Shown here: piece by piece, positions 14,786 to 64,000 of the stretch
Layout of the letters: each line of letters begins with the position of its first letter
Position numbering within the stretch: the stretch's first letter is position 1
Assembly (NCBI GenBank): GCA_026397475.1
Contig: JAPLUT010000005.1
Coordinates: 62,001 to 126,000 of the forward strand
DNA length: 64,000 nt
Direction of reading: 5' to 3'
Origin: a candidate division SR1 bacterium
Lineage (GTDB): Bacteria > Patescibacteriota > Gracilibacteria > Absconditabacterales > Absconditicoccaceae
Translations under genes and position numbers: made by a program
Notes under the pieces: model-generated
The model's database searches: none
What the model was told of the DNA's origin: nothing
The model's input: only the letters and a program-made list of their open reading frames with translations

Positions 14786-14916
14786 CTCTAATCGCTTTGG
14801 ATTCCTAATAATTGATCGTCCCTCTGGGACTTATTCGAACATCTTTTTATTTACTCTAATCGCTTTGGACTTCCATCCAAAGCTAATAATTGATCGTCCC
14901 TCTGGGACTCATTCGA
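14786..14916. repeat. Two hairpin-bearing direct repeats before the IS200-like gene
   Basis: Copy A (14786-14838) and copy B (14854-14916) share ctctaatcgctttgga, taataattgatcgtccctct and gggact(t/c)attcga. Each has the hairpin GTCCC-tct-GGGAC. Copy B adds CTTTGGA-cttcca-TCCAAAG. Such structured DNA next to a Y1 transposase resembles REP or IS200 subterminal hairpins. Confidence 0.75.
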
Positions 14917-14942
14917 GATCATTTATAATTAATGACTTGATC

Positions 14943-15395
14943 ATGTCTTATACTCAAATCTACTTACATTGTATCTTTGCGACAAAATGAAGACAAATGT
15001 TTCTTGATCCTACACATGATGACGTGTTGCAAAAATATATTACTGGGATTGTTCAATCTCCAGATCGCAAATGCAAAATGTTGGCAATTAATAATGTAGA
15101 AGATCATATGCATATGCTTATAATTTTACATCCAAGCTATTCTCCTGCAAAACTCATGCAAGAGATTAAAGCAATAAGTTCTAAATTTATCAATGATAGC
15201 AATCGATATAAGTATAAGTTTCAATGGCAAATAGGATATGGTTGTTTTTCTTATGCACAAGCTGAAATAAAAAATGTTTGCAATTATATCCGCAAACAAA
15301 AAGAACATCATAAAACAATATCACTAGCGGATGAATATCTTTGATTACTAAAAAAATTTAATATAGAATTCAATGAAAAATATCTGTTTGATTAA
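14943..15395 (+). mobile_element. tnpA: IS200/REP-type Y1 transposase (TnpA) gene
   Basis: The 150-residue product is a HUH endonuclease of the IS200/IS605 or REP-associated (RAYT) group. It has the HUH motif in VEDHMHMLIILHP and the catalytic tyrosine in NVCNYIRKQKEHHK, the usual C-terminal helix of the Y1 family. These enzymes nick and rejoin single-stranded DNA at hairpins. Two hairpin repeats lie upstream and two clean hairpins downstream (15396-15441). Two in-frame TGA codons decode as Gly (FATKGRQ and YLGLLKK), so the element is adapted to this code. No TnpB is present. Confidence 0.88.
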
Positions 15396-33168: not shown

Positions 33169-33453
33169 ATGAGATTATTAACGTTTTTTCTAATATGGTC
33201 AGTCGCTCTTGGCTGGGCAGGCTGGCTCATCTGTCTGATTGTTAAATTATTTTCCAAGTGGTTCTGGTATCCTATAGGACCTTCCTGGATAATCATGACC
33301 ATCTGGGCTATTGTACTAATTATCTTTATGGTAATTCTTTGGTGGAGAAATCCCCTCCTTCGAACCTCCCGATGAATAATCGGAGGAACAAACAATAAGA
33401 AAATCAACTGAGTTCTGTTTCCAGAGCTCTTTTTTTATTTTAAAAGAGAATAG
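33169..33453 (+). CDS. Small membrane protein, two helices
   Basis: The 94-residue product has two membrane helices (about residues 5-27 and 40-60) joined by a Trp-rich loop (KWFWYPIGPSW), then a basic tail. No family recognised. Two TGA codons (33373 and 33409) must be read as Gly to reach the TAG at 33451. The last about 15 codons run through a terminator-like hairpin (GAGTTCTG-tttc-CAGAGCTC plus T run, 33411-33437), so the true end is debatable. The TAG lies inside the 113-bp element that begins at 33450. Confidence 0.55.
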
Positions 33454-33563
33454 TTGTTATCACAATAATTCCTCATTACATTTTAAACTTATTTGGATAA
33501 CAACTATAATTTCGACGTTGTAAAAACTTTCGTTATCACTTAACTTTTTCCTGCGTCTCAATT
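33450..33563. repeat. 113-bp element with covarying inverted repeat, copy 1
   Basis: About 91% identical to 40659-40771, same orientation. The outer inverted repeat ATAGTTGTTATC (33450-33461) / GATAACAACTAT (33496-33507) differs from copy 2 by a matched T-A to C-G change. A second GTTATCAC word occurs at 33532-33539. No ORF. Confidence 0.8.
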
Positions 33564-33570
33564 AAAAAAA

Positions 33571-33591
33571 TCTCCCAGAAAAACCGGGAGA
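33571..33591 (-). terminator. Intrinsic terminator of the gene at 33619-33972
   Basis: TCTCCC-agaaaaacc-GGGAGA; the A run on its left is the U tract on the minus strand. Confidence 0.8.
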
Positions 33592-33618
33592 AAATTAAAC
33601 TTCGTTTCATGCGCTCGA

Positions 33619-33972
33619 CTATTCTGCCGGAGCGAATTTTTTTTTGATTGTGCTGATGAATATTTCATCAAGCTCTTTTGCCCATGGGCTCTTAGGCTCA
33701 ATCCGAAGCCTCGACCGCCCTCTCAATTCACAATAGGCAACATGCAGGTGACGATAATTGTGCCGGTCCTTCGCATATTGCTCTTCAAGTGTCGAGCAAT
33801 TTTCCAGATAGCTTGCCCTATGTTCTCTGGAAGAGGAATCTTTCTTCATCGAAGCACTTAATGCTTTGTGGTTGTTTTTAATTTTTTTCTTGAGCTCTCC
33901 AAGCTGCAATGCTCGGAAATTTAATTCATTTTTCATTCCATCTAAAGATGGATAATCTTTTTTATCTGCCAT
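33619..33972 (-). CDS. Hypothetical coiled protein, tandem paralogue 1
   Basis: The 117-residue product is basic and helical. It opens KKDYPSLDGMKNELNFRALQL, then a lysine-rich coiled stretch (GELKKKIKNNHKAL). The conserved core NYRHLHVAYCELRGRSRLRIE is shared with its neighbour at 34058-34438. No TGA is used. No family recognised. The core looks like a nucleic-acid-binding helix pair, but this is a guess. It has its own promoter (33998-34025) and terminator. Confidence 0.7.
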   Translation of the reverse strand: MADKKDYPSLDGMKNELNFRALQLGELKKKIKNNHKALSASMKKDSSSREHRASYLENCSTLEEQYAKDRHNYRHLHVAYCELRGRSRLRIEPKSPWAKELDEIFISTIKKKFAPAE

Positions 33973-33997
33973 GGCAATTCGTTTTTGTTTATATCTT

Positions 33998-34025
33998 TTT
34001 ATATATAATTCTGCAATAAAGTCAA
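33998..34025 (-). promoter_or_regulatory. Promoter of tandem paralogue 1
   Basis: Minus strand: TTGACT (34020-34025), 16 bp, TATAAA (33998-34003). Confidence 0.65.
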
Positions 34026-34043
34026 TCTTTATTTTAAAAAAAA

Positions 34044-34063
34044 CTATAGCGGATACGCTATAG
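34044..34063 (-). terminator. Intrinsic terminator of tandem paralogue 2
   Basis: Perfect CTATAGC-ggatac-GCTATAG stem followed on the minus strand by a U tract (plus-strand taaaaaaaa). Confidence 0.82.
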
Positions 34064-34438
34064 CGGTAATTTTGCTTGTGTTGATGATCAAGATGCTAGA
34101 GGCGCGTACCTTAGCTTGTGTCTTGTAATTAATTTTTCATCAATCTTTCGGGAAGATGTTTTTTCTATCTGTCCGCGGCTTTTCCCGCGAAGTTCACAAT
34201 AAGCTACATACAAATGTCTGTAAACATTGCGCGATATTTCATATACTTCACTGAATCTCGCACAATTTCCATGTAAAATGAGTTCTTCTTCCGAAGAAGA
34301 TAATTTATTCTTATGGATAGCACTCAATTCTTTTTGATTGTTTTTTATTCTTTTCTTTTGTTCTCTCAGAGACGCTGCCCTGGATTTCAATTCGTTTTTC
34401 ATTCTAGTTAAGTCTGGATACTTTGTATTTTTTGTCAT
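34058..34438 (-). CDS. Hypothetical coiled protein, tandem paralogue 2
   Basis: The product shares the layout of its neighbour: KYPDLTRMKNELKSRAASL, a lysine-rich coil (KKRIKNNQKELSAI) and the core VYRHLYVAYCELRGKSRGQIE. The first possible stop is TGA at 34088-34090. Under table 25 translation continues as GSSTQAKLPL to a TAG at 34058 that lies inside the terminator stem, giving 126 residues. Because this is the only place where a TGA coincides with the natural family end, the C-terminus is uncertain. A TTGATT-16-TATAAG promoter lies at 34460-34487. Confidence 0.65.
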
Positions 34439-34589
34439 AACTTTTTTGTTTGAAAAAGTCTTATATATAATTCTGCAATAAAATCAATCTTTATTTTTTC
34501 TTGTTTCATTTTTATTTTTCCTTACAAAGATTTAAAAGAAACCTGCAGTAAAATAGAAATTCTAAATTATAAATTAATAATTCTAAATT

Positions 34590-35651
34590 ATGATTTTGTG
34601 ATTAGCTCCCATGGATTGATTTACTGATTGTGCCTTTCGTCAGATTACGAAAGAAATTTTTGAAAAATATGGAGAAAAAGAGAAATATGATTTTCGTCTA
34701 TGGACTGAATTTATGAATGCAGATGGCTATATGATAAATCCTACAGGAGTCATTAGACACCTTCTCACCAGCAAAAAACAAGCACCGGTAGTCGCACAAA
34801 TATTTTGAGGGAATGAAGATATGCTCCTCAAATGTTTTGCTGATATCCAAAATAAATATGCAGAAATATTTTCTGGTATCGAGTTAAATATGTGATGTCC
34901 CGCTAGAAATGTCATGAGCACCGGAGGCGGAAGCGCTTTACTCAGATGCAGGCCACAGACTGTAGATACTATTAGAAAAATTTCATGAATCATGAAAATG
35001 CCTTTTAGCGTAAAGACAAGAACAGGATTAGACGAACAAGATCTCGAAGAGCAAACAATTTTTCTTACTGAAATAAGCAAATACCTCACTGCAATAACAG
35101 TGCACTGAAGAACCGTCAAACAAGGATACGCAGACAATGGAAATTGGGAATTTATTTACGCACTTAAAAAAAAAGTAGATAAAAATTGTAAAGTAATCGG
35201 CAATGGATGAATAAAATCATACGAAGATATAGCCACATACTCGCAATGAGATGGCGTAGTTCTAGACTGAGTACTTATCGGACAAGCTGCTATCGGAAAT
35301 CCTTGGGTTTTTACACCACACATTCCTAGCAGACAAGAAATCAAAGAAACTATTTTGAGACATCTTGAGTATATGATGACTTATGAAATCTTTTTTCAAG
35401 AACAGGTAAAACTATTTGATTGAACTTTGTCTATGCCTACGGCATTGCTTTTAGACAAGCCTATCGTTCAATCGTTCGATCGTTCTCACGTCCTCATTTC
35501 AGAATTTAGGAAGCATCTTTTCCAATATGTAAAATGAATCCCCGAATCCAAGGAGTTTAAACAAAAAGTAAGTACGATCAGTGAATATGGACTGCTCGTT
35601 GAAGAAATTCAGAATTTTTTTACTATCCCTACAGAAAGTCATTGATCTTAA
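34590..35651 (+). CDS. dus: tRNA-dihydrouridine synthase
   Basis: Dus reduces uridine to dihydrouridine in tRNA with FMN and NAD(P)H. The 353-residue product has the opening LAPMDGFTD, QIFGGNEDM, IELNMGCPARNV (catalytic Cys, normally MGCP), SVKTRTGLD, ITVHGRTVKQGY and VIGNGGIKSYED, the FMN phosphate site. The start MILGLAPMDG includes two TGA-coded glycines. A stretch encoded at about 35426-35490 is made of word repeats (cgttcaatcgttcgatcgtt) and has no counterpart in the family, so it looks like an insertion in the helical C-terminal domain. Confidence 0.95.
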
Positions 35652-35738
35652 ATTCTCAATTTTAGATACTATAGTATCTAAGAATCCCTCGGACTTCGCC
35701 ACCTCCCTTTACGAAAGGGAGACACAAAAATAAAAAAA

Positions 35739-36092
35739 TTATACACAGATTTCTACACGACATTTTCCCTCGGGAAGTATTTTGAAAATTCATCCCTCTA
35801 TACGAAGGAGATGTTGTTTTGTGATGATAGGGACTCACTTAGCTGACAAGTCACGAACGAAATCACGTCATTTTTTGCTATATTTGAATTGATTGGGAGT
35901 CATTCATGATTTTTCTTTCATTTTCTCAAAAAAAGTGTTTCGATTTTCTGTACTAAAAAAAATATATTCTCCTTCGCTTTTGTGCCAGAGGATTCATTTT
36001 TCTGGTAAGGTAAGTGCAGACAGAATGTCTTGTTTAACTTTAAGCTCCCCTTCCTTGTGATGTGCGTCTATAAACGTTCTTTGGTTTTCCAT
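35739..36092 (-). CDS. Hypothetical protein, 117 aa, visible only with UGA = Gly
   Basis: The product starts MENQRTFIDAHHKEGELK and ends KCRVEICV. It needs five TGA codons read as Gly, so standard gene finders miss it. It is basic, without signal peptide or membrane segment. No family recognised. Support comes from a matched promoter (TTGACT at 36121-36126 complement, 16 bp, TATAAC at 36099-36104) placed as in the neighbouring genes, and a TAA stop. Confidence 0.6.
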
Positions 36093-36098
36093 GCCTAT

Positions 36099-36126
36099 GT
36101 TATATATATTTACATATAAAAGTCAA
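36099..36126 (-). promoter_or_regulatory. Promoter of the 117-aa gene
   Basis: Minus strand: TTGACT (36121-36126), 16 bp, TATAAC (36099-36104). Confidence 0.55.
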
Positions 36127-36184
36127 ATAACAATAAAAAAAAGGAACTCGAATACGAGCCCTTCTATATTTAAATTCATTACTC

Positions 36185-36772
36185 CTACTGAACAATTTGA
36201 TCCCTTAGCGAAGCTATAGGATTGATTGTTAGTACTCCATCAGAGATGGAAAAGTCTTTTACATCAGCCCCTTTTTCATGGGGATGATGCGACAATGATT
36301 TTTCAATGTTTTCCCGGAAGATCCTACATATAGTATCAATTGGCATTTCCTCTCCGACAAAATCTTCTGAGGAACAAACATGCGCAACGAATTGTTCTTC
36401 GGTTTCAAAAACATTGATTTTTTGATTGAAATACCGATGATCGGAATTTCTCTGTTTAGCTGTCATTTTCTTCCCGATATTGATTCGGGAAGCAGCGAAA
36501 TACATAATTTTCCCGCCTAAGAAGGTAACGCCTGCCATTGAATAACTGGGCGTATTTTCATTTTCAATGACGTTTCTTTCACAGAAACTCATCTTTTCAT
36601 GCGGGAAATAGGCTACTGCTTCTTGCCATCCTGCACGAAGGGACTTAATGGTTTCCTTATCTAAGGTAGTACCCAAAAGACAAAGCGTCATGTTCCTGTT
36701 AAATTTGAACTGATATTCAAAAAAATTTGTTCGATTCTCCTTAAGGAGATTAATAATTGCGATTTGATCCAT
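36185..36772 (-). CDS. Hypothetical protein, 195 aa
   Basis: No family recognised. The ATG at 36772 (MDQIAIINLLKENR) is chosen over an upstream ATG at 36811, because that codon lies in the spacer of a TTGACT-16-TATAAA promoter (36794-36821). The protein is soluble and alpha/beta in look. It has a hydrophobic core (MTLCLLGTTLDKETIKSL) and a strand-rich part (SMAGVTFLGGKIMYFAASRI). No TGA is used. A histidine-rich patch (KSLSHHPHEKGAD) lies near the end. Confidence 0.7.
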   Translation of the reverse strand: MDQIAIINLLKENRTNFFEYQFKFNRNMTLCLLGTTLDKETIKSLRAGWQEAVAYFPHEKMSFCERNVIENENTPSYSMAGVTFLGGKIMYFAASRINIGKKMTAKQRNSDHRYFNQKINVFETEEQFVAHVCSSEDFVGEEMPIDTICRIFRENIEKSLSHHPHEKGADVKDFSISDGVLTINPIASLRDQIVQ

Positions 36773-36793
36773 TTTCTTTTTATTTGTGCTTAT

Positions 36794-36821
36794 TTTATAC
36801 ATATTTACCAATAAAAGTCAA
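36794..36821 (-). promoter_or_regulatory. Promoter of the 195-aa gene
   Basis: Minus strand: TTGACT (36816-36821), 16 bp, TATAAA (36794-36799), leader with ACAAATAAAA. Confidence 0.62.
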
Positions 36822-36879
36822 TTATACTTTCTGAGTTCCGCTTTATTCTCTTTTTTTAATACGTAAGTATACATTACTA

Positions 36880-36960
36880 TGAATTATGAACGCTTTCAAC
36901 ACAACATAAAACAATGAATAATGAATAATGAACAATGAATAATTGTTAAGAATATTTTTC
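36880..36960. repeat. Word-repeat spacer before priA
   Basis: Tandem words built on atgaataatgaataatga and gaacaatgaataattg. No gene is seen. Confidence 0.7.
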
Positions 36961-36968
36961 TTGTTAAT

Positions 36969-37958
36969 ATGACGAAGGAGATTACTCCTTACTTTTCTCA
37001 ATTAGCATTTCAATGAATAGAAAAATATCTCGCTCAGTGAAAAAAAATCTGAATTCTTGTAAATAAAAAAGGCTATGCGGGATGAATCATCTGTCATGAC
37101 TGCGGAAATATCCCTAAATGCAAAAACTGTTCTATAAGTATTAGCTATCATAAACTCGCCTCTTGAGATACCATAGGACTTTGTCATATCTGCAAAACCC
37201 AATATGATGTGCCGAAGATCTGTCCGCAATGTCATAGCGAAAAAATAAAAGATTTTTGATTGTGAACACAAAAAGTTGCAGAATACCTGAAAAATGAATA
37301 CCAGCAAGATGCACTTATTATCGAGTCAGCAAGCGTTAATTCTCCAAACAAGATAAAAAAGATTACCGAAACAATTACACAGCACAATATTATAATCTGA
37401 ACCTCACTTCTCGCTACTCCTCCCAAAAATATACATTTTGACCTCATCATATTTCTTAATGCTGACCTCTGATTAAACATCCCAGACTACACTTCTGCAG
37501 AAAAAAATTTCTATTTTCTCTACGAAGCATTTGTAAAACATCCCACGGCAAATTTTATTGTACAATCGTTTAATCCAGATCAATACAGCATTCGCTCAGC
37601 ATGTCAGTTGAGCAAAGAAAATTTTTATATAGAAGATAATGCATTTAGAAAAGTAAATGGATATCCTCCCTTTGGAGAACTCTGTGTGATTTTATATAAG
37701 AACGAGATCGAGGAAAGTCTGCACACCAAGGTCGATACCCTCCATAAAAATCTCCTCTATCTCAAAGAAAAATATCAGTTAAAAGATATTGAAATATACT
37801 CTACTCCCCCACTGATTTACAAAATGTTTGGAAAATATAGATACAACATCATCTTAAAATGACCTAATGTCAGACAGTTTATGGACATTATTTTCACGAA
37901 ATTGAATTTGGCGAAGAAGGGATTTAAGCTCGATTGGATGGCGGAGAGTATAGTGTAA
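36969..37958 (+). CDS. priA: PriA-like protein, C-terminal half only
   Basis: PriA restarts stalled replication forks. This 329-residue product begins at the helicase C-terminal region (LVNKKGYAGGIICHDCG corresponds to the NRRGY...C..CG block). It carries the full eight-cysteine zinc site (CHDCG, CKNC, CHICK, CPQC) and the end block GTQKVAEYLKNEY, and finishes with the C-terminal domain (NGYPPFGELCVILYKN). The N-terminal DNA-binding domain and the DEXH ATPase with Walker A and B are missing, and only word repeats lie upstream. It might be an accessory protein or a remnant. Many TGA codons decode as Gly. Confidence 0.82.
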
Positions 37959-38143
37959 ATTTTAAATATTAAAAAGTTATGAAGGTTAAAATATTTAGTA
38001 ATGTTCAACTACGAATTTTTTTGTCCTCCTTTATTTGACCGAAGGGAATCCCGTGGATAAAGGAGGGGGTACCCTTTAGGGTGGAGGATTTAAAAAAATC
38101 TCCCGGAAAAACCGGGAGAGAAGAACATTGTTGTTTGTCCTGA
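37959..38143. other. Intergenic stretch with imperfect palindrome
   Basis: Contains cctcctttat ... ataaaggagg arms (about 38024-38068) and a terminator (38099-38119: TCTCCCGG-aaaa-ACCGGGAGA) for the minus-strand gene that follows. No coding sequence is seen. A related ctccctttacgaaagggag motif is at about 35703-35721. Confidence 0.55.
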
Positions 38144-38575
38144 TTATATTAATTTAAATCCTCGCAATATTGATACAAGGATAAAAAGAAGACATATAAT
38201 GACACCAAACACACTCATAATTTTGCATTTTCTGTGGAGAGATATCAATCCCTCTACCATAATATCTTCGGCTTCTTCTACATCTACCAATATTCGTTTT
38301 TCGTCTCTTGCTTTCTTTTGATTTCTCAAAATTTCGTTTATACGTTGACTTGCAAAAACCATAAGCATAGTAGGGACAAACCACGACAAGATCAAAACAC
38401 TCGTCAAGAATGTTGGTCCAATATCAAATTTCACAAAGAACTGCGAGCAACCGAAGAATAAATATATCAATGGAAAGAGTAAGTAGAATCTATCCATGAT
38501 TTTTATATCGTCTGCATCTAATTTAAGGGCCCACCTCCATTTGTAGGTAGACCATGCTAATTTTAAAGTTTTCAT
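38144..38575 (-). CDS. Small membrane protein of the 38-42 kb cluster (143 aa)
   Basis: Three membrane helices are predicted (about residues 29-46, 54-74 and 117-137) with a charged coiled stretch between the second and third (NEILRNQKKARDEKRILV). The N-terminus is cytoplasmic and basic. No family recognised. It has its own promoter (38599-38626) and a strong terminator. It uses no TGA. It is one of at least five short membrane proteins transcribed in the same direction within 4 kb. Confidence 0.7.
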   Translation of the reverse strand: MKTLKLAWSTYKWRWALKLDADDIKIMDRFYLLFPLIYLFFGCSQFFVKFDIGPTFLTSVLILSWFVPTMLMVFASQRINEILRNQKKARDEKRILVDVEEAEDIMVEGLISLHRKCKIMSVFGVIICLLFILVSILRGFKLI

Positions 38576-38598
38576 CTTTTTATTTTTATTTGTATTTT

Positions 38599-38626
38599 TT
38601 TATATATAACCTACATAATAAGTCAA
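38599..38626 (-). promoter_or_regulatory. Promoter of the 143-aa membrane protein gene
   Basis: Minus strand: TTGACT (38621-38626), 16 bp, TATAAA (38599-38604), leader containing ACAAATAAAA. Confidence 0.65.
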
Positions 38627-38652
38627 GACATAGATTTTTATAGGACAAAAAA

Positions 38653-38674
38653 ATCTCCCGGAAAAACCGGGAGA
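38653..38674 (-). terminator. Intrinsic terminator of the 87-aa gene
   Basis: TCTCCCGG-aaaa-ACCGGGAGA with the U tract on the minus strand. It is the same hairpin as at 38099, so it is duplicated. Confidence 0.82.
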
Positions 38675-38700
38675 GAATCAAACAATAAATTATTGATTTA

Positions 38701-38964
38701 TTAATTTCTTTCGCTGGCCGTATATCCAGCTTTTTCGAATTTTTTTACGATGCAGTCTACCACCACATCTGCCGTCTCCTCACAAAGGGAAACCATAGTC
38801 TCCATGAGTGTTTCATGAGAAACCTCTTCTATTTCTGACTCAAGAAGCTGAGTCTTTTTTGCCTCCCTTTGACGGAACTGTTTTTCAATCAAATCTTTTG
38901 GATCTGTTATCAGTCTGAAGATATTTGCCATCTCCAATAACTGATGAATATTGTAATAGAGCAT
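38701..38964 (-). CDS. Small helical protein, paralogue of 39623-39892 (87 aa)
   Basis: The protein is acidic and all-helical. The segment EIEEVSHETLMETMVSLCEETADVVVDCIVKKFEKAGY (quoted in parts: EVSHETLMETM, VVVDCIVKKFEKAGY) aligns with EVSYETLCEAI...VIVILNKFRSLGY in 39623-39892. The paralogues share length and layout. No family recognised, no membrane segment. The promoter at 38993-39020 is consensus (TTGACT-16-TATAAT). Confidence 0.7.
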   Translation of the reverse strand: MLYYNIHQLLEMANIFRLITDPKDLIEKQFRQREAKKTQLLESEIEEVSHETLMETMVSLCEETADVVVDCIVKKFEKAGYTASERN

Positions 38965-38992
38965 TTTTTTTCTTTATATGGTTTATCTTTTT

Positions 38993-39020
38993 ATTATAGA
39001 TAAACATAATCAAAAGTCAA
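38993..39020 (-). promoter_or_regulatory. Promoter of the 87-aa gene
   Basis: Minus strand: TTGACT (39015-39020), 16 bp, TATAAT (38993-38998). The best sigma-70 match in the window. Confidence 0.72.
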
Positions 39021-39093
39021 GTTAAATCTCAAAAGAGAATATAAAAAAAACTCTCCTGGGAAACCAGAAGAATCAATATATTTTTTACTATCT

Positions 39094-39618
39094 TTAGCCC
39101 TCTTTCGGCAATTTCTTCAGCCATTTCCAGCTTTTGAAATACTCCCAGAAGTTTCTTTCATTTGATGAGATATATACTTGTAACTGTATATTCATCTCTT
39201 CAAACTTTTTTTCACGGGCAGCCAAAGTTTCGGCTGGCGTACCTTTTTCAGACAAGAGATACCATGCCGTAGGCACGAGTTCCTTAGGGATGTGCTCAAA
39301 TGTAAGCACACTAATTGCTTCGTATTCTTTTTTTATTTTTGCCAAATCCTGTTCCTCTTTTTTCTCTTTTTTTAGTAATTTGGAGATTGCTCGTTGCATA
39401 TTCATAAGTAGTATTCCTGGTAGGTATATCAGAACACCAATTAAGAATATAAATCCGAATAGCAAAGCTAGGAACATTTGTTCATAGACAGACAAGGCCA
39501 TGACAACAATTAGTACTATGCTCCAGGAGACAATCTTCCTTGTAGCTTGCTGTTTTTCTTTCTCCAGCTTACTATCGAGCTGGTGAAATTTTTCTAGGGG
39601 CGTTTTTTCTTCGATCAT
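39094..39618 (-). CDS. Small membrane protein with FW-YFKS-KWLKK tail (174 aa)
   Basis: It has two adjacent membrane helices (about residues 28-46 and 50-70), then a long charged helical region (LLKKEKKEEQDLAKIKKEY). The C-terminus, RNFWEYFKSWKWLKKLP, is nearly the same as in 40003-40506. LTFEHIPKELVPTAWYLLSE is similar to the LTFDRLPRKHIETLNYLWSK region of 41480-42022. So three genes of one family lie here. It starts 4 bp after the 89-aa gene stop and shares its promoter. Function unknown. Confidence 0.72.
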   Translation of the reverse strand: MIEEKTPLEKFHQLDSKLEKEKQQATRKIVSWSIVLIVVMALSVYEQMFLALLFGFIFLIGVLIYLPGILLMNMQRAISKLLKKEKKEEQDLAKIKKEYEAISVLTFEHIPKELVPTAWYLLSEKGTPAETLAAREKKFEEMNIQLQVYISSNERNFWEYFKSWKWLKKLPKEG

Positions 39619-39622
39619 TGTT

Positions 39623-39892
39623 TTATTTTTTTGGTTCTGTGTCTGTGATCTCTACGTAGCCTAGAGACCTAAATTTATTAAGGATTACTATAACCGTTTC
39701 CTGTCCGCACATGCTAAGGCCATTTATTGCCTCACACAATGTTTCGTAAGAAACTTCTATTATAAAGCCTTCTGCTACTTTTGTTTTTTCTGCCTCTATC
39801 TTGCGGAGGCTGGCTTCTAACTGAGCTTGCCCAGTATCTTCTGTTGAAAACGACTGAGCCGCCTTCAAAATTTCTTCTAATTTGTAGTTCAT
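39623..39892 (-). CDS. Small helical protein, paralogue of 38701-38964 (89 aa)
   Basis: This soluble helical protein has the conserved EVSYETLCEAINGLSMCGQE and VILNKFRSLGY segments. It is the first gene of a two-gene unit with the 174-aa membrane protein (gap 4 bp), which suggests that the soluble and the membrane protein act together. The promoter is TTGACT-16-TATAAA at 39924-39951. No TGA used. No family recognised. Confidence 0.7.
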   Translation of the reverse strand: MNYKLEEILKAAQSFSTEDTGQAQLEASLRKIEAEKTKVAEGFIIEVSYETLCEAINGLSMCGQETVIVILNKFRSLGYVEITDTEPKK

Positions 39893-39923
39893 GTTTTTTT
39901 TTGCTTTTTATTTGTGTCTTATT

Positions 39924-39951
39924 TTTATATATAAATAATATGTTAAGTCAA
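39924..39951 (-). promoter_or_regulatory. Promoter of the 89-aa/174-aa gene pair
   Basis: Minus strand: TTGACT (39946-39951), 16 bp, TATAAA (39924-39929), leader with ACAAATAAAA. Confidence 0.65.
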
Positions 39952-39978
39952 GCCTAATGGCTTTTTTACAACAAAAAA

Positions 39979-39999
39979 ATTTCCCGGGAGACCGGGAAA
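39979..39999 (-). terminator. Intrinsic terminator of the 167-aa gene
   Basis: TTTCCCGG-gaga-CCGGGAAA, with a U tract on the minus strand. Confidence 0.82.
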
Positions 40000-40002
40000 T
40001 CA

Positions 40003-40506
40003 CTATTTTACTTTTTTCAGCCATTTAAGGCTTTTGAAATACTGCCAAAAAGTTCTCTCAATAGAAGCGATATATACATCTAAATTGACCTTGCTCACTT
40101 CCAGCTCTTTTTCAGCTTGCCATAAGGGCTTTTTCTTTCTGCCAAAAATATAATTGGAAGCAGTTTTTTTGTTAATAGCCGGAACAACAGAAGTTTTATT
40201 AGCTTGCGCTTTCTTCATTTCTTCTATCTCCCGTTCTTCTTTTTCAATTTCTTTTTTTAGCCGTTTTTCTCTTTTTTCCATATTTAATCCTCGCATTGGT
40301 ACGGGAACAAATAGGAACCAAATACCACAGATATACATCATGTGCGAAATGTAGTAAGATAGCCCACCCATACCAGAAATTATAGCATTACCTCCGGCAA
40401 CAAGTAATGGAATTGCTCCCATAACAAGTGTTGCCCACAGTAACTGTTTCTTTTTGCTTTCTAAATCTCTGCGACATTCAGAAAACATTTTTGCATTTGT
40501 ATTCAT
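40003..40506 (-). CDS. Small membrane protein with FW-YFKS-KWLKK tail (167 aa)
   Basis: Two membrane helices (about residues 22-42 and 52-70) are followed by a strongly charged coil (KREKRLKKEIEKEEREIEEM). The C-terminal stretch is SIERTFWQYFKSLKWLKKVK, shared with 39094-39618. The N-terminal SECRRDLESKKKQLL resembles SEAQRDLEKRKMRHM of 41480-42022. The promoter is TTGACT-16-TATATG (40543-40570). No TGA used. Function unknown. Confidence 0.72.
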   Translation of the reverse strand: MNTNAKMFSECRRDLESKKKQLLWATLVMGAIPLLVAGGNAIISGMGGLSYYISHMMYICGIWFLFVPVPMRGLNMEKREKRLKKEIEKEEREIEEMKKAQANKTSVVPAINKKTASNYIFGRKKKPLWQAEKELEVSKVNLDVYIASIERTFWQYFKSLKWLKKVK

Positions 40507-40658
40507 CAGATCAATGTATTTTATTGTTTTGTTTGTATACTACATATATCCTAATCCCGCATTAAGTCAAACCATATTTTTGAAGGAAAATACGACATTC
40601 TTTTGCAAAATATACACATCCTTCTTCAAAAATATAAATATTTTTGATTGAAGAATGC

Positions 40659-40771
40659 ACAGTTGTTATCACAATAATTTCTCATTACATTTCAGGCTTA
40701 TTTGGATAACAACTGTAATTTCGACCTCGTAAAAACTTTCGTTATCACTCAACTTTTTCCTGCGTCTCAAA
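40659..40771. repeat. 113-bp element with covarying inverted repeat, copy 2
   Basis: Second copy of 33450-33563. Inverted repeat ACAGTTGTTATC (40659-40670) / GATAACAACTGT (40705-40716). Other differences fall in the loop and the 3' part. As in copy 1, it is followed at once by a terminator of a minus-strand gene. Confidence 0.8.
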
Positions 40772-40779
40772 TAAAAAAA

Positions 40780-40799
40780 ACTCCTGGGAAACCAGAAGT
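40780..40799 (-). terminator. Terminator of the 183-aa gene
   Basis: ctCCTGGG-aaa-CCAGaag arms (weaker stem) with plus-strand A run aataaaaaaaa. Confidence 0.6.
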
Positions 40800-40822: not shown

Positions 40823-41374
40823 TTAAATGGCTTTTACCCATTCCCAGTCAAGGATTTTCAACTGATTAGGCTTTACCTGATCATCAAGATATCTTATTTT
40901 ATCTTCCGTGATGGAGATATTTTCTTGATACATGTGCACTTTACCCGGAATGTGTTCATATTCCACAGACATGGAATCACTTTGCTTTACGAGGTAATAC
41001 TTTGAATACTCCTCTTTTGAAAGAGATTTTTGTGCAGAGTCTAAGTAATGTAACTCGTGCTTCCACTCTTGGACGTCTTTTTCCAATTTCTTTTTGATCT
41101 TATCTTTGGTTAACCCAAAGTATTGGATTCCCCGTATTCTGGAAACAATCCAAATAAGAAAGAAAAGAACTAAGAAAAATACTCCGATTCCTACTTTCCA
41201 TACAACCATAGTAATGCTAAAAGCAGGGAACAGCATTGCTATATACACCATAAACATTACTCACGTATATCCGCCTAAAAAGTAGACAGTTATTTTAGCT
41301 AATAATGAAAATTTTTTGTTTTTTTGGAACTCCCTTTTAAATTCCTCAAGACCTTTTGTGGACTTTAATTTCAT
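40823..41374 (-). CDS. Small membrane protein of the 38-42 kb cluster (183 aa)
   Basis: The product starts MKLKSTKGLEEFKREFQKN. It has two membrane helices (about residues 28-50 and 55-78), then a basic coiled region and a soluble C-terminal part ending NQLKILDWEWVKAI. A TGA at about 41258 decodes as Gly in GGYTGVMF, so a code-11 call would be truncated. It shows the general layout of its neighbours but not the FW-YFKS tail. Promoter TTGACT-16-TATGAA (41402-41429). Confidence 0.68.
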
Positions 41375-41479: not shown

Positions 41480-42022
41480 CTACATTACTTCGGCATTTTC
41501 TTCAGCCATTTCCAGCTGATTGAATACTGCAGTACGCTCTGGAGAGAGTTGGTATGCTTGCAGCTTGAAGCGCAGAGCATCAAGCTCTTCATCACGAGCA
41601 TCCATAATTTGTTCTGGAGTTTTGTCTTCTTTGCTCCAAAGATAATTAAGGGTCTCAATGTGTTTTCTGGGAAGCCTATCAAAGGTGAGCAAACAAATAT
41701 CACGATACTCTTTCCTAATAACAGACATCATTTGTTCTTCCAGAGGAATTTTTTTCCTTAGTTCCTCTTCCTTTTTCTTCATACTCAAATCCCTTATGAT
41801 ATCAGGGATTATGGTAAGTCCCAAGAGAAAAGCCATAACGACATACTCTATCTTACGGGCAATTGGATCAGGGCGATAAGCAAACATACCTAATTCTATG
41901 CCTATAGGGACAGCGAGTATTGTTATTACTAACAATTGCATATGCCTCATTTTTCTCTTTTCCAAGTCTCTTTGAGCTTCGGAAAGCTTTTCTGTGGCTG
42001 TTTTTTTTGTTTCTGTTGCCAT
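41480..42022 (-). CDS. Small membrane protein of the 38-42 kb cluster (180 aa)
   Basis: A charged N-terminus (SEAQRDLEKRKMRHM) precedes two membrane helices (about residues 29-48 and 61-80) and a long helical cytosolic part. The segments LLTFDRLPRKHIETLNYLWS and LDALRFKLQAYQLSPERT align with the paralogue at 39094-39618, while the FW-YFKS tail is replaced by NQLEMAEENAEVM. Promoter TTGACT-16-TATAAA at 42048-42075. No TGA used. Function unknown. Confidence 0.72.
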   Translation of the reverse strand: MATETKKTATEKLSEAQRDLEKRKMRHMQLLVITILAVPIGIELGMFAYRPDPIARKIEYVVMAFLLGLTIIPDIIRDLSMKKKEEELRKKIPLEEQMMSVIRKEYRDICLLTFDRLPRKHIETLNYLWSKEDKTPEQIMDARDEELDALRFKLQAYQLSPERTAVFNQLEMAEENAEVM

Positions 42023-42075: not shown

Positions 42076-42287
42076 CAGATATCGTATTTTTTTCTATTTA
42101 TCGCCTCTAAATAGCACTAATATTGGCAATATTTTTGCTTCCGGAGCAAAAATGGAGTATAATAAATACAATAAACAAGAACAGGATGAAGGGCGTAGGA
42201 CGAAGGATAAAAGGAATAAGATTTCGTTATCACAACCTGCTCCCTGTACCTTGTACCCTATATCCCTTTAGTAATTTACTTGTCTTA

Positions 42288-49415: not shown

Positions 49416-49486
49416 CGTCATTCCCGCGAAAGCGGGAATCCAAGCTTAATGGTATGGATTCCCGATCAGGCCGGGAATGACGTTGA
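49416..49486. repeat. GC-rich REP-like palindromic repeat, copy 1
   Basis: ACGTCATTCCCG-cgaaag-CGGGAATCCA, then TGGATTCCCG-atcagg-CCGGGAATGACG. Two hairpins in inverted arrangement form a large imperfect palindrome in an otherwise AT-rich genome. Confidence 0.82.
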
Positions 49487-53731: not shown

Positions 53732-53836
53732 CACGTCATTCCGGATCTGATCGGGAATCCAACTTGCATACCGCAGGCAAGATAGATTCCCGCTTTCGCG
53801 GGAATGACCCCGCTGTTGCGGGGCAGGCTGTAGGGA
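53732..53836. repeat. GC-rich REP-like palindromic repeat, copy 2, with GC hairpin
   Basis: GTCATTCCGG-atctga-TCGGGAATCC and GATTCCCGC-ttt-GCGGGAATGAC bracket a spacer, followed by CCCCGC-tgtt-GCGGGG. Same words as copy 1 at 49416, with the two hairpins in the opposite order. Confidence 0.82.
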
Positions 53837-62410: not shown

Positions 62411-64000
62411 ATGCCTATGGACAAGGGAATCAAAAATATTTCTCATGTAATCAATCACGTGAAAGCACACAAGCACCATTATCTGCTTGGGACATTTTGA
62501 TCATTTGCGATTATCAAAATGGTGATTGTCTTTCTCTGACTTTTTTGACTTAGTCAGATAAAACATTCCTTTGCTCGATCTCCTGCAGAGCTCAATAGCG
62601 GGAACATAGTGGGATATGGATGTGCTACCAATGACACGATATGTGACTTGTCTAATCTGCAACTTACAGGAATTGCTCCTGATACATTTATAAATCACAC
62701 TGATTTGGATTCCTTATATCTTAGCAACAATTCTCTCTCTTCTCTTGATTCTGGTGTTTTCAATAATCTCACTGGCTTGACTCATTTATATCTTAGCAAC
62801 AACTCATGAATTATACTTCATACGGGGATCTTTGATAATCTCACTAGCTTAATCGACCTATATCTTAACAGTAATTCAATCTCTTCTCTTCCCGTGGGAA
62901 TCTTTGATTCTCTTACTGGTTTGAAAAACTTAGATATTGCGGTAAACCCATGAATTATACTTCATACGGGGATTTTTGATAATCTCACTAGTTTAAGTAC
63001 CCTATATCTTGGAAGCGACTCCCTTTCTTCTCTTAATTCTGGTGTTTTCAATAATCTCACTGGTTTGCATACCTTATATCTTAGCAACAACTCATGAATT
63101 ATACTTCATACGGGAATCTTTGATAATCTCACTAATTTAAATGTTTTAGATCTTAGCGTTAACTCGCTTTCTTCTCTTCCCGTGGGAATATTTGACAATC
63201 TCACTAGTCTGACGCAGCTATACCTTAACAACAACTCATGAATCATACTTCATACGGGGATCTTTGATAATCTCACTAGTTTAAGTATCCTAAACCTTTA
63301 TCGAGATTCACTATCTTCTCTTCCTATGGGAATATTTGACAATCTCACTAGTTTGAGTTTGCTAAACCTTGGAGTCAACTCCCTCTCTCCTCTTAATTCT
63401 GGTGTTTTCAATAATCTCACTGGATTGCATTCCTTATATCTTAACAACAACTCCCTCTCCTCTCTTAATTCTGGTGTTTTCAATAATCTCACTGGTTTGA
63501 CTCATTTAGATCTTAGCAATAATTCGCTTTCTTTTCTTCATACGGGGATCTTTGATAATCTCACTAGCTTAATGGACCTATATCTTAACAGTAATTCAAT
63601 CTCTTCTCTTCCCGTGGGAATATTTAATAATCTTGCTGGCTTGACGCAGCTATACCTTAGAACCAACTCAATTTCTTCTCTTCCCGTGGGAATCTTTGAT
63701 AATCTCACTAATTTAAATGTTTTAGATCTTGGCACTAACTCGCTTTCTTCTCTTCCCGTGGGAATATTTGACAATCTCACTAGTCTGACGCAGCTATACC
63801 TTAACAACAACTCAATTTCTTCTCTTCCACAAAATATTACAGGACTTATAAATTTGACTACATGAGTATGATTATTTATATCTTACAATGCTATCTACAC
63901 AGGATATTGGAATACTGATCTTTTGAATTTTGTAAACAGCAAGACCAACGACCCCAACCGGTATAGTACACAAACATGGGCTCCCGTTGTAAATTGAACT
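62411..64000 (+). CDS. Leucine-rich-repeat surface protein (runs off the window)
   Basis: The visible 530 residues begin MPMDKGIKNISHVINHV. A transmembrane segment follows at about residues 32-50, then a Cys-containing cap (GYGCATNDTICDLSNLQLTG) and about 16 LRR units of 24 residues (consensus LxxLYLxxNSLSSLxxGIFDNLTS). After the array comes ISYNAIYTGYWNTDLLNFV. The units are mosaics of a few block types; four carry a TGA-coded Gly (NNSGIILHTGIFDNL). Bacterial extracellular LRR proteins often bind host or neighbouring cells. The gene continues past base 64000. Confidence 0.82.

Follow-up and report, generated by a model that had tools for sequence, protein, structure and literature searches.

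The two repeats analysed here belong to a family of hairpin modules, termed A, B and C, which probably (we put it at roughly two chances in three) represent non-autonomous, modular palindromic mobile elements of an Absconditabacteria lineage, similar to MITEs, REPINs and BOX elements and likely to be recognised by their shape. The family is multicopy and restricted in distribution, it has polymorphic as well as nested insertions, and its stems covary, also by compensated changes in copies that stay in place. The window, i.e. the whole analysed stretch of 64,000 nucleotides, comes from a genome of 1.17 Mb (8 contigs) in which TGA is read as glycine. Nine ORFs of at least 200 aa are found in the window with the standard code, and ORFs reach up to 908 aa if TGA is translated as glycine.

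The first-pass annotation described a 113-bp element in two copies, about 91% identical, at 33450-33563 and 40659-40771. Both positions are borne out, and identity amounts to 92% over 124 nt (86% over 151 nt without gaps; repeat family D2). The arms of the inverted repeat lie at 33450-33461/33496-33507 in copy 1 and at 40659-40670/40705-40716 in copy 2, and the reported paired change, T-A to C-G, is exact. Adjacency to terminators holds as well, as each copy is situated directly behind the intrinsic terminator of a minus-strand gene (Table 1). The proposed limits and copy number have to be corrected. The 113-bp unit is in fact a composite of hairpins A and C, copy 2 runs on into hairpin B, and the genome contains about 15 A+B and about 17 C copies instead of two. 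Along the minus strand, the terminator is followed by C (58 nt), A (~60 nt) and, in copy 2 only, B (~42 nt). The word TTTCGTTATCAC, noted as occurring alone at 42222, is present there; the remainder of module C is absent around it and we treat it as unrelated. Both would be examples of one chain, terminator - C - A - B, behind which another hairpin, F, is often found.

Table 1. Hairpin modules and terminators at the two copies in the window. R1 is the A+B covariance model, built with copy 2 among its sequences; R2 is the C model, built with copy 1 (33506-33564) among its sequences.
Position	Strand	Feature	Basis
33410-33429	+	Terminator-like hairpin; 33424-33449 belongs to its tail	Terminator-like site
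33424-33449	-	Place of B in copy 1; B missing or replaced	R1 match 33424-33508, just 58.6 bits
33450-33508	-	Module A, copy 1; hairpin	Sequence, R1 match, ssDNA fold z -4.2
33506-33564	-	Module C, copy 1; conserved tandem G-A mismatch, foot touches A	R2 match 70 bits, E 4.8e-15
33571-33591	-	Intrinsic terminator of ORF 33619-33972 (-)	C begins where its T-tract ends
40614-40655	-	Module B, copy 2	R1 match 40614-40717, 105.7 bits, E 8.8e-18
40656-40717	-	Module A, copy 2; arms with C-G replacing T-A	Sequence, R1 match
40715-40773	-	Module C, copy 2	R2 match 66.6 bits, E 3.6e-14
40780-40799	-	Intrinsic terminator of ORF 40823-41374 (code 25, -)	C follows its T-tract

The repeat is far beyond chance. 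A blastn search (E <= 0.001) retrieved 14 related places in the genome, which have the same loop and quite different stems, and the R1 covariance model matches copy 1 with E 7.2e-9 and copy 2, itself among the sequences of the model, with E 8.8e-18. The A+B part of copy 2 folds as single-stranded DNA with z -7.1. Genes flanking the two copies have no clear DNA-level counterpart within the genus. Copy 2 lies among minus-strand genes (39094-39618, 40003-40506 and 41480-42022) that resemble one another in places (repeat families D5 and D8) and lack a Pfam match above cut-off.

Modules A and B form a recurring unit in which B follows A. The outer stem of module A (11-13 bp) is free in sequence and is followed by a CA/GT mismatch, an inner stem AATAA/TTATT, and then TCC/GGA with a conserved loop. 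Module B has a free outer stem with terminal T-G pair, an AA/A internal loop and then TCAAAAATA/TATTTTTGA. Module C is composed of AATT/AATT, a tandem G-A mismatch, GAC/GTC, one freely covarying pair (G-C, A-U or C-G), a CA/GA mismatch and an A-T-rich stem. Per-column conservation in A+B is mostly 43-75% in the outer stems of A and mostly 85-100% in internal loops and inner columns taken together; internal loops alone are mostly at 85-99%.

Of the 37 base pairs of A+B, 34 have double-sided changes among 83 copies, and pairing is intact in 93% of pair cells. The covariation score is 0.401, whereas shuffles give 0.141 and slid pairings no more than 0.103; double-changed cells number 392 versus 99 in shuffles. 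Since this alignment was fitted to the covariance model, we put equal weight on nine copies aligned with MAFFT and on pairs of copies in place (see below). The nine, aligned by sequence alone, already covary, with double-sided changes in 16 of the 37 pairs and a score of 0.330 (0.167 shuffled, at most 0.143 with slid pairings). Module C covaries among its own copies as well. The window pair alone would be no proof of selection, since its C modules have one uncompensated difference, the G-C pair of copy 1 being replaced by G facing G in copy 2, and two inner pairs of its A modules count as broken. The family gives strong support to the earlier suggestion that the stem is maintained: further copies with unmatched arms, named at that time as evidence to the contrary, did not appear. 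Shape of the fold rather than exact stem sequence seems to be kept in the modules.

Further, we examined distribution of the modules. The A+B model finds 15 strong copies in the genome and has matches in 10 of 41 genomes searched, the window's own included. Across the class, 12 of 288 genomes have A+B, all of them from three genera of one family, and the C model is limited to the same three genera. There are 17 copies of C in the genome and 48 in G001; in G007, four C copies form a tandem array with 70-nt spacing (G007:C63:13513-13781). Where genomes with the conserved A core are named, their label is candidate division SR1 or just bacterium. From the genetic code and from these neighbours, the window probably belongs to an Absconditabacteria (SR1) lineage. 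Searched viral, phage and plasmid collections gave no match to the modules, and the hairpin family is described in none of the literature and families searched.

Comparison of related genomes reveals that insertions are polymorphic. In G000, A+B interrupts a DUF2103 gene; the G001 version reads through at this point and has its own A+B elsewhere in the gene. The copy in DUF2103 contains the stop codons TAG TAA. The L149 composite of G007 has no counterpart in the corresponding gap of G000 and G003, nor does G001 have the L157 copy of G000. A DUF559 gene of G004 is split by antisense A+B, and within genes A+B is found in both orientations. Most A+B copies are intergenic, and their orientation relative to flanking genes is even (++ 23, +- 19, -+ 15, -- 15). 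Local GC skew in element orientation is positive in 45 and negative in 29 cases, a difference (p 0.08) that we do not use as evidence of replication-strand bias. The flanks are A-T-rich, with T at position -1 in 53 of 74 copies and A at +1 in 57 of 74. The ends of A+B are palindromic and AT-rich, with a possible TAT repeat, and for A+B alone no clean target-site duplication longer than ~3 nt was established. Module C is often located just past an intrinsic terminator; among the C copies collected first, a T-tract marks the start of most, as a rule with a G-C hairpin before it.

The modules are also inserted into one another. A+B is nested within the loop of C at two loci (L100, L151), a foreign hairpin lies within A at L139, and B contains an insertion at L168/L169. 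Chains holding A+B include C-A-B-F, D-A-B-E and reversed C-A-B-terminator, and A+B is also found inside a larger composite. At L164 (~2710-2900), modules D and E form a repeated chain, CAACCGCCAAAAAAA...TTTTTTTGGATGATTG and then ACCGACAATTTGAGAA...; in L165, A+B sits in the middle of such a chain. At L162 (2830-2970), two B-like hairpins occur without module A in a longer tandem palindromic repeat (AAAATTTCACATATCCTTCAATCAAAAATA...GGTCAAATTTTACGGGAC). We considered whether new copies might take their stems from the target, and rejected this idea, the uninterrupted G001 site having only TATAGTT in common with the element end.

Two A+B sites are common to two species each. At the first (L121 in G003, L096 in G001), the alignment of the flanks extends across the element. 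Its stems differ in three pairs, all of them compensated and none broken, and two changes fall into loops. At the second (L163 in G000, L124 in G003), all three changes in module B are compensated; module A, where a loop indel makes the alignment ambiguous, has one kept double change, three one-sided kept changes and three broken pairs. Pairing is kept in these resident copies, for which host function, palindrome correction or continuing mobility with replacement may be responsible. Maintenance in place over the divergence of species counts against the mobile-element account, as mobility alone does not need it.

The first-pass annotation had offered a small RNA, a mobile hairpin element or a protein site. 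The mobile hairpin fits best; the small RNA is unsupported, and a double-stranded protein site leaves the freely variable stems unexplained. In the RNA explanation, the modules would be a dispersed structured family (small RNAs or 3'-UTR/attenuator elements) whose folded transcripts bind a protein by their conserved loops. In its favour are the strong covariation and the conserved internal loops, a combination typical of RNA, further the frequent occurrence of two wobble pairs in A+B and the pairing that the two resident copies kept in place. Still, Rfam gives no match at gathering thresholds nor anything of substance near E 1, both window copies are located behind terminators, and no orientation rule relative to genes exists, divergent gaps included. 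On these three grounds we regard a small RNA as unlikely. The region has no more promoter-like sites than shuffles have, and insertion sites differ between species. Outside the two common wobble pairs, G-U is found 67 times and A-C 51 times, while a crude control with tRNA gives 31 and 11. G-U is not clearly favoured in the variable stems, which speaks against RNA in a suggestive way only (Fisher p 0.065).

The rarity of both G-U and A-C intermediates would suit another explanation, in which the repeats are selfish or dead and palindrome correction, a switch of template from one arm to the other at replication, keeps the arms complementary while the fold itself is not selected. Paired changes often form adjacent runs, such as TT>CG with AA>CG at L121/L096 and three neighbouring B pairs at L163/L124. 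Against this, nearly every copy retains its internal mismatches (CA/GT in A, AA/A in B, tandem G-A in C), which indiscriminate correction would erase; we consider this explanation rather improbable. Copies within genes raise the question of intervening sequences that are removed from mRNA or skipped by the ribosome, and mobile bypassing elements do occur in yeast mitochondria. The A+B copies of DUF2103 lie at different points in two species, and excision of the insert leaves an open frame matching the other species. This is outweighed by the stop codons within the insert, by the antisense DUF559 copy, whose net length is apparently no multiple of three, and by the intergenic location of most copies. 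DUF2103 moreover has no match at the same place in G003 (L114), so the gene looks dispensable. We therefore give this explanation very little credit.

For the preferred reading, mobile palindromic modules, the following course of events is proposed. The A+B double hairpin would behave as a single insertion unit entering AT-rich places, preceded by T and followed by A; in many cases this would be the foot or the loop of another hairpin module. C often begins at the T-tract of an intrinsic terminator. The probable target of recognition is a folded single strand presenting conserved internal mismatches and loops held by the stems. The stems would need only to pair, so their letters could drift through paired changes. 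We infer recognition of the single strand, a recombinase or transposase acting in trans, and lack of host function. A more specific version, clearly more tentative, is that an Absconditabacteria recombinase or transposase moves the modules by shape alone through conserved mismatches on the folded single strand, in an attC-like manner without gene cassettes, so that stems drift and modules insert at the feet and into the loops of others.

Candidate enzymes of three kinds were examined, and none of them (Y1, IS630-type, reverse transcriptase) could be linked to the modules. The genome's Y1 transposase is not supported as mobiliser, being flanked by unrelated hairpins: the IS200/RAYT-like Y1 ORF (14946-15395; region 14805-15395) is preceded by another kind of hairpin repeat in two copies (TAATAATTGATCGTCCCTCTGGGAC...) and followed by GTGCCGAAGGCACGATCC. 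No convincing A+B match was found near 8 Y1 loci, and Y1 is absent from the element-bearing, incomplete assemblies G003, G005, G007 and G008. IS630-type transposases were dismissed because PF13358 (DDE_3) has no match in the own genus, G010 or G022. Reverse transcriptase, also rejected, is scattered and absent from element-rich G001, G003 and G010, some element-rich assemblies being incomplete. At L166 (G000:C7:29309-30510), the end of a reverse-transcriptase gene runs into an A+B copy, and the next gene is weakly similar to bAvd.

By analogy, the modules would work like REPINs and BOX-type elements, and like attC sites as far as shape is maintained over stem sequence. REPINs are short mobile extragenic hairpins of bacteria in which compensatory changes on both hairpin sides are reported to be common (PMC3116915). 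Their conserved part is an inverted REP 16-mer at the ends and their spacer is variable, whereas A+B has variable outer stems and conserved inner loops. In REP-RAYT systems, the RAYT (Y1) gene is flanked by the same repeats and a constant REP sequence forms the hairpin foot; here, no RAYT gene carries the modules and the foot of A is its poorly conserved outer stem. Streptococcus pneumoniae has BOX, RUP and SPRITE, families of short elements that occur in clusters and also inside each other, with one terminator-like family among them (PMC10969869). Combining and nesting of modules is shared with BOX-like modular repeats, a likeness in organisation; free stems kept by covariation and restriction to three genera are specific to the present case.

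The modules lack defining features of REPINs, as described, and likewise of Rickettsia palindromic elements and attC sites. Rickettsia palindromic elements are palindromes of 100-150 bp that enter genes too, with in-frame fusions (PMC10969869); an ORF passes through them, whereas A+B has stop codons and interrupts genes. Integron attC sites are recognised as folded single strands via unpaired and extrahelical bases and are poorly conserved in sequence (PMC2727003). They offer a model for recognition of a variable stem such as we propose, yet they have terminal R boxes (RYYYAAC/GTTRRRY) and border gene cassettes, while A+B has no constant end boxes and does not border cassettes. Double-hairpin and repetitive hairpin elements of fungal and sponge mitochondria are tandem, variable between relatives, intergenic and sometimes located in genes (PMC2800124). 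The sponge elements combine conserved stems with variable loops, the reverse of A+B, and reside in organelles, not in bacteria. MITEs in general are short, numerous, without coding capacity and polymorphic in their sites, all of which applies to the modules. MITEs share terminal inverted repeats and target-site duplications with an autonomous partner; A+B has palindromic, AT-rich ends with a possible TAT repeat, and no partner was found among the candidate enzymes.

If the main reading is right, small genomes with an altered genetic code harbour lineage-restricted, interlocking palindromic mobile modules in which recognition depends on shape more than on sequence. With more than 80 copies, at polymorphic as well as shared fixed sites, the family provides a test set for why hairpin pairing is kept, whether by a mobilising enzyme, host function or palindrome correction. 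It also calls for caution, as paired changes alone do not prove an RNA.

Other repeats were observed in the window as well. A perfect 24-nt inverted repeat, GTCATTCCCGCGAAAGCGGGAATC, occurs at 49417-49440 and 53785-53808; it is REP-like and unrelated to modules A-C. An array with 72-nt period and at least 13 units extends from 62672 to 63814, apparently within minus-strand coding sequence.
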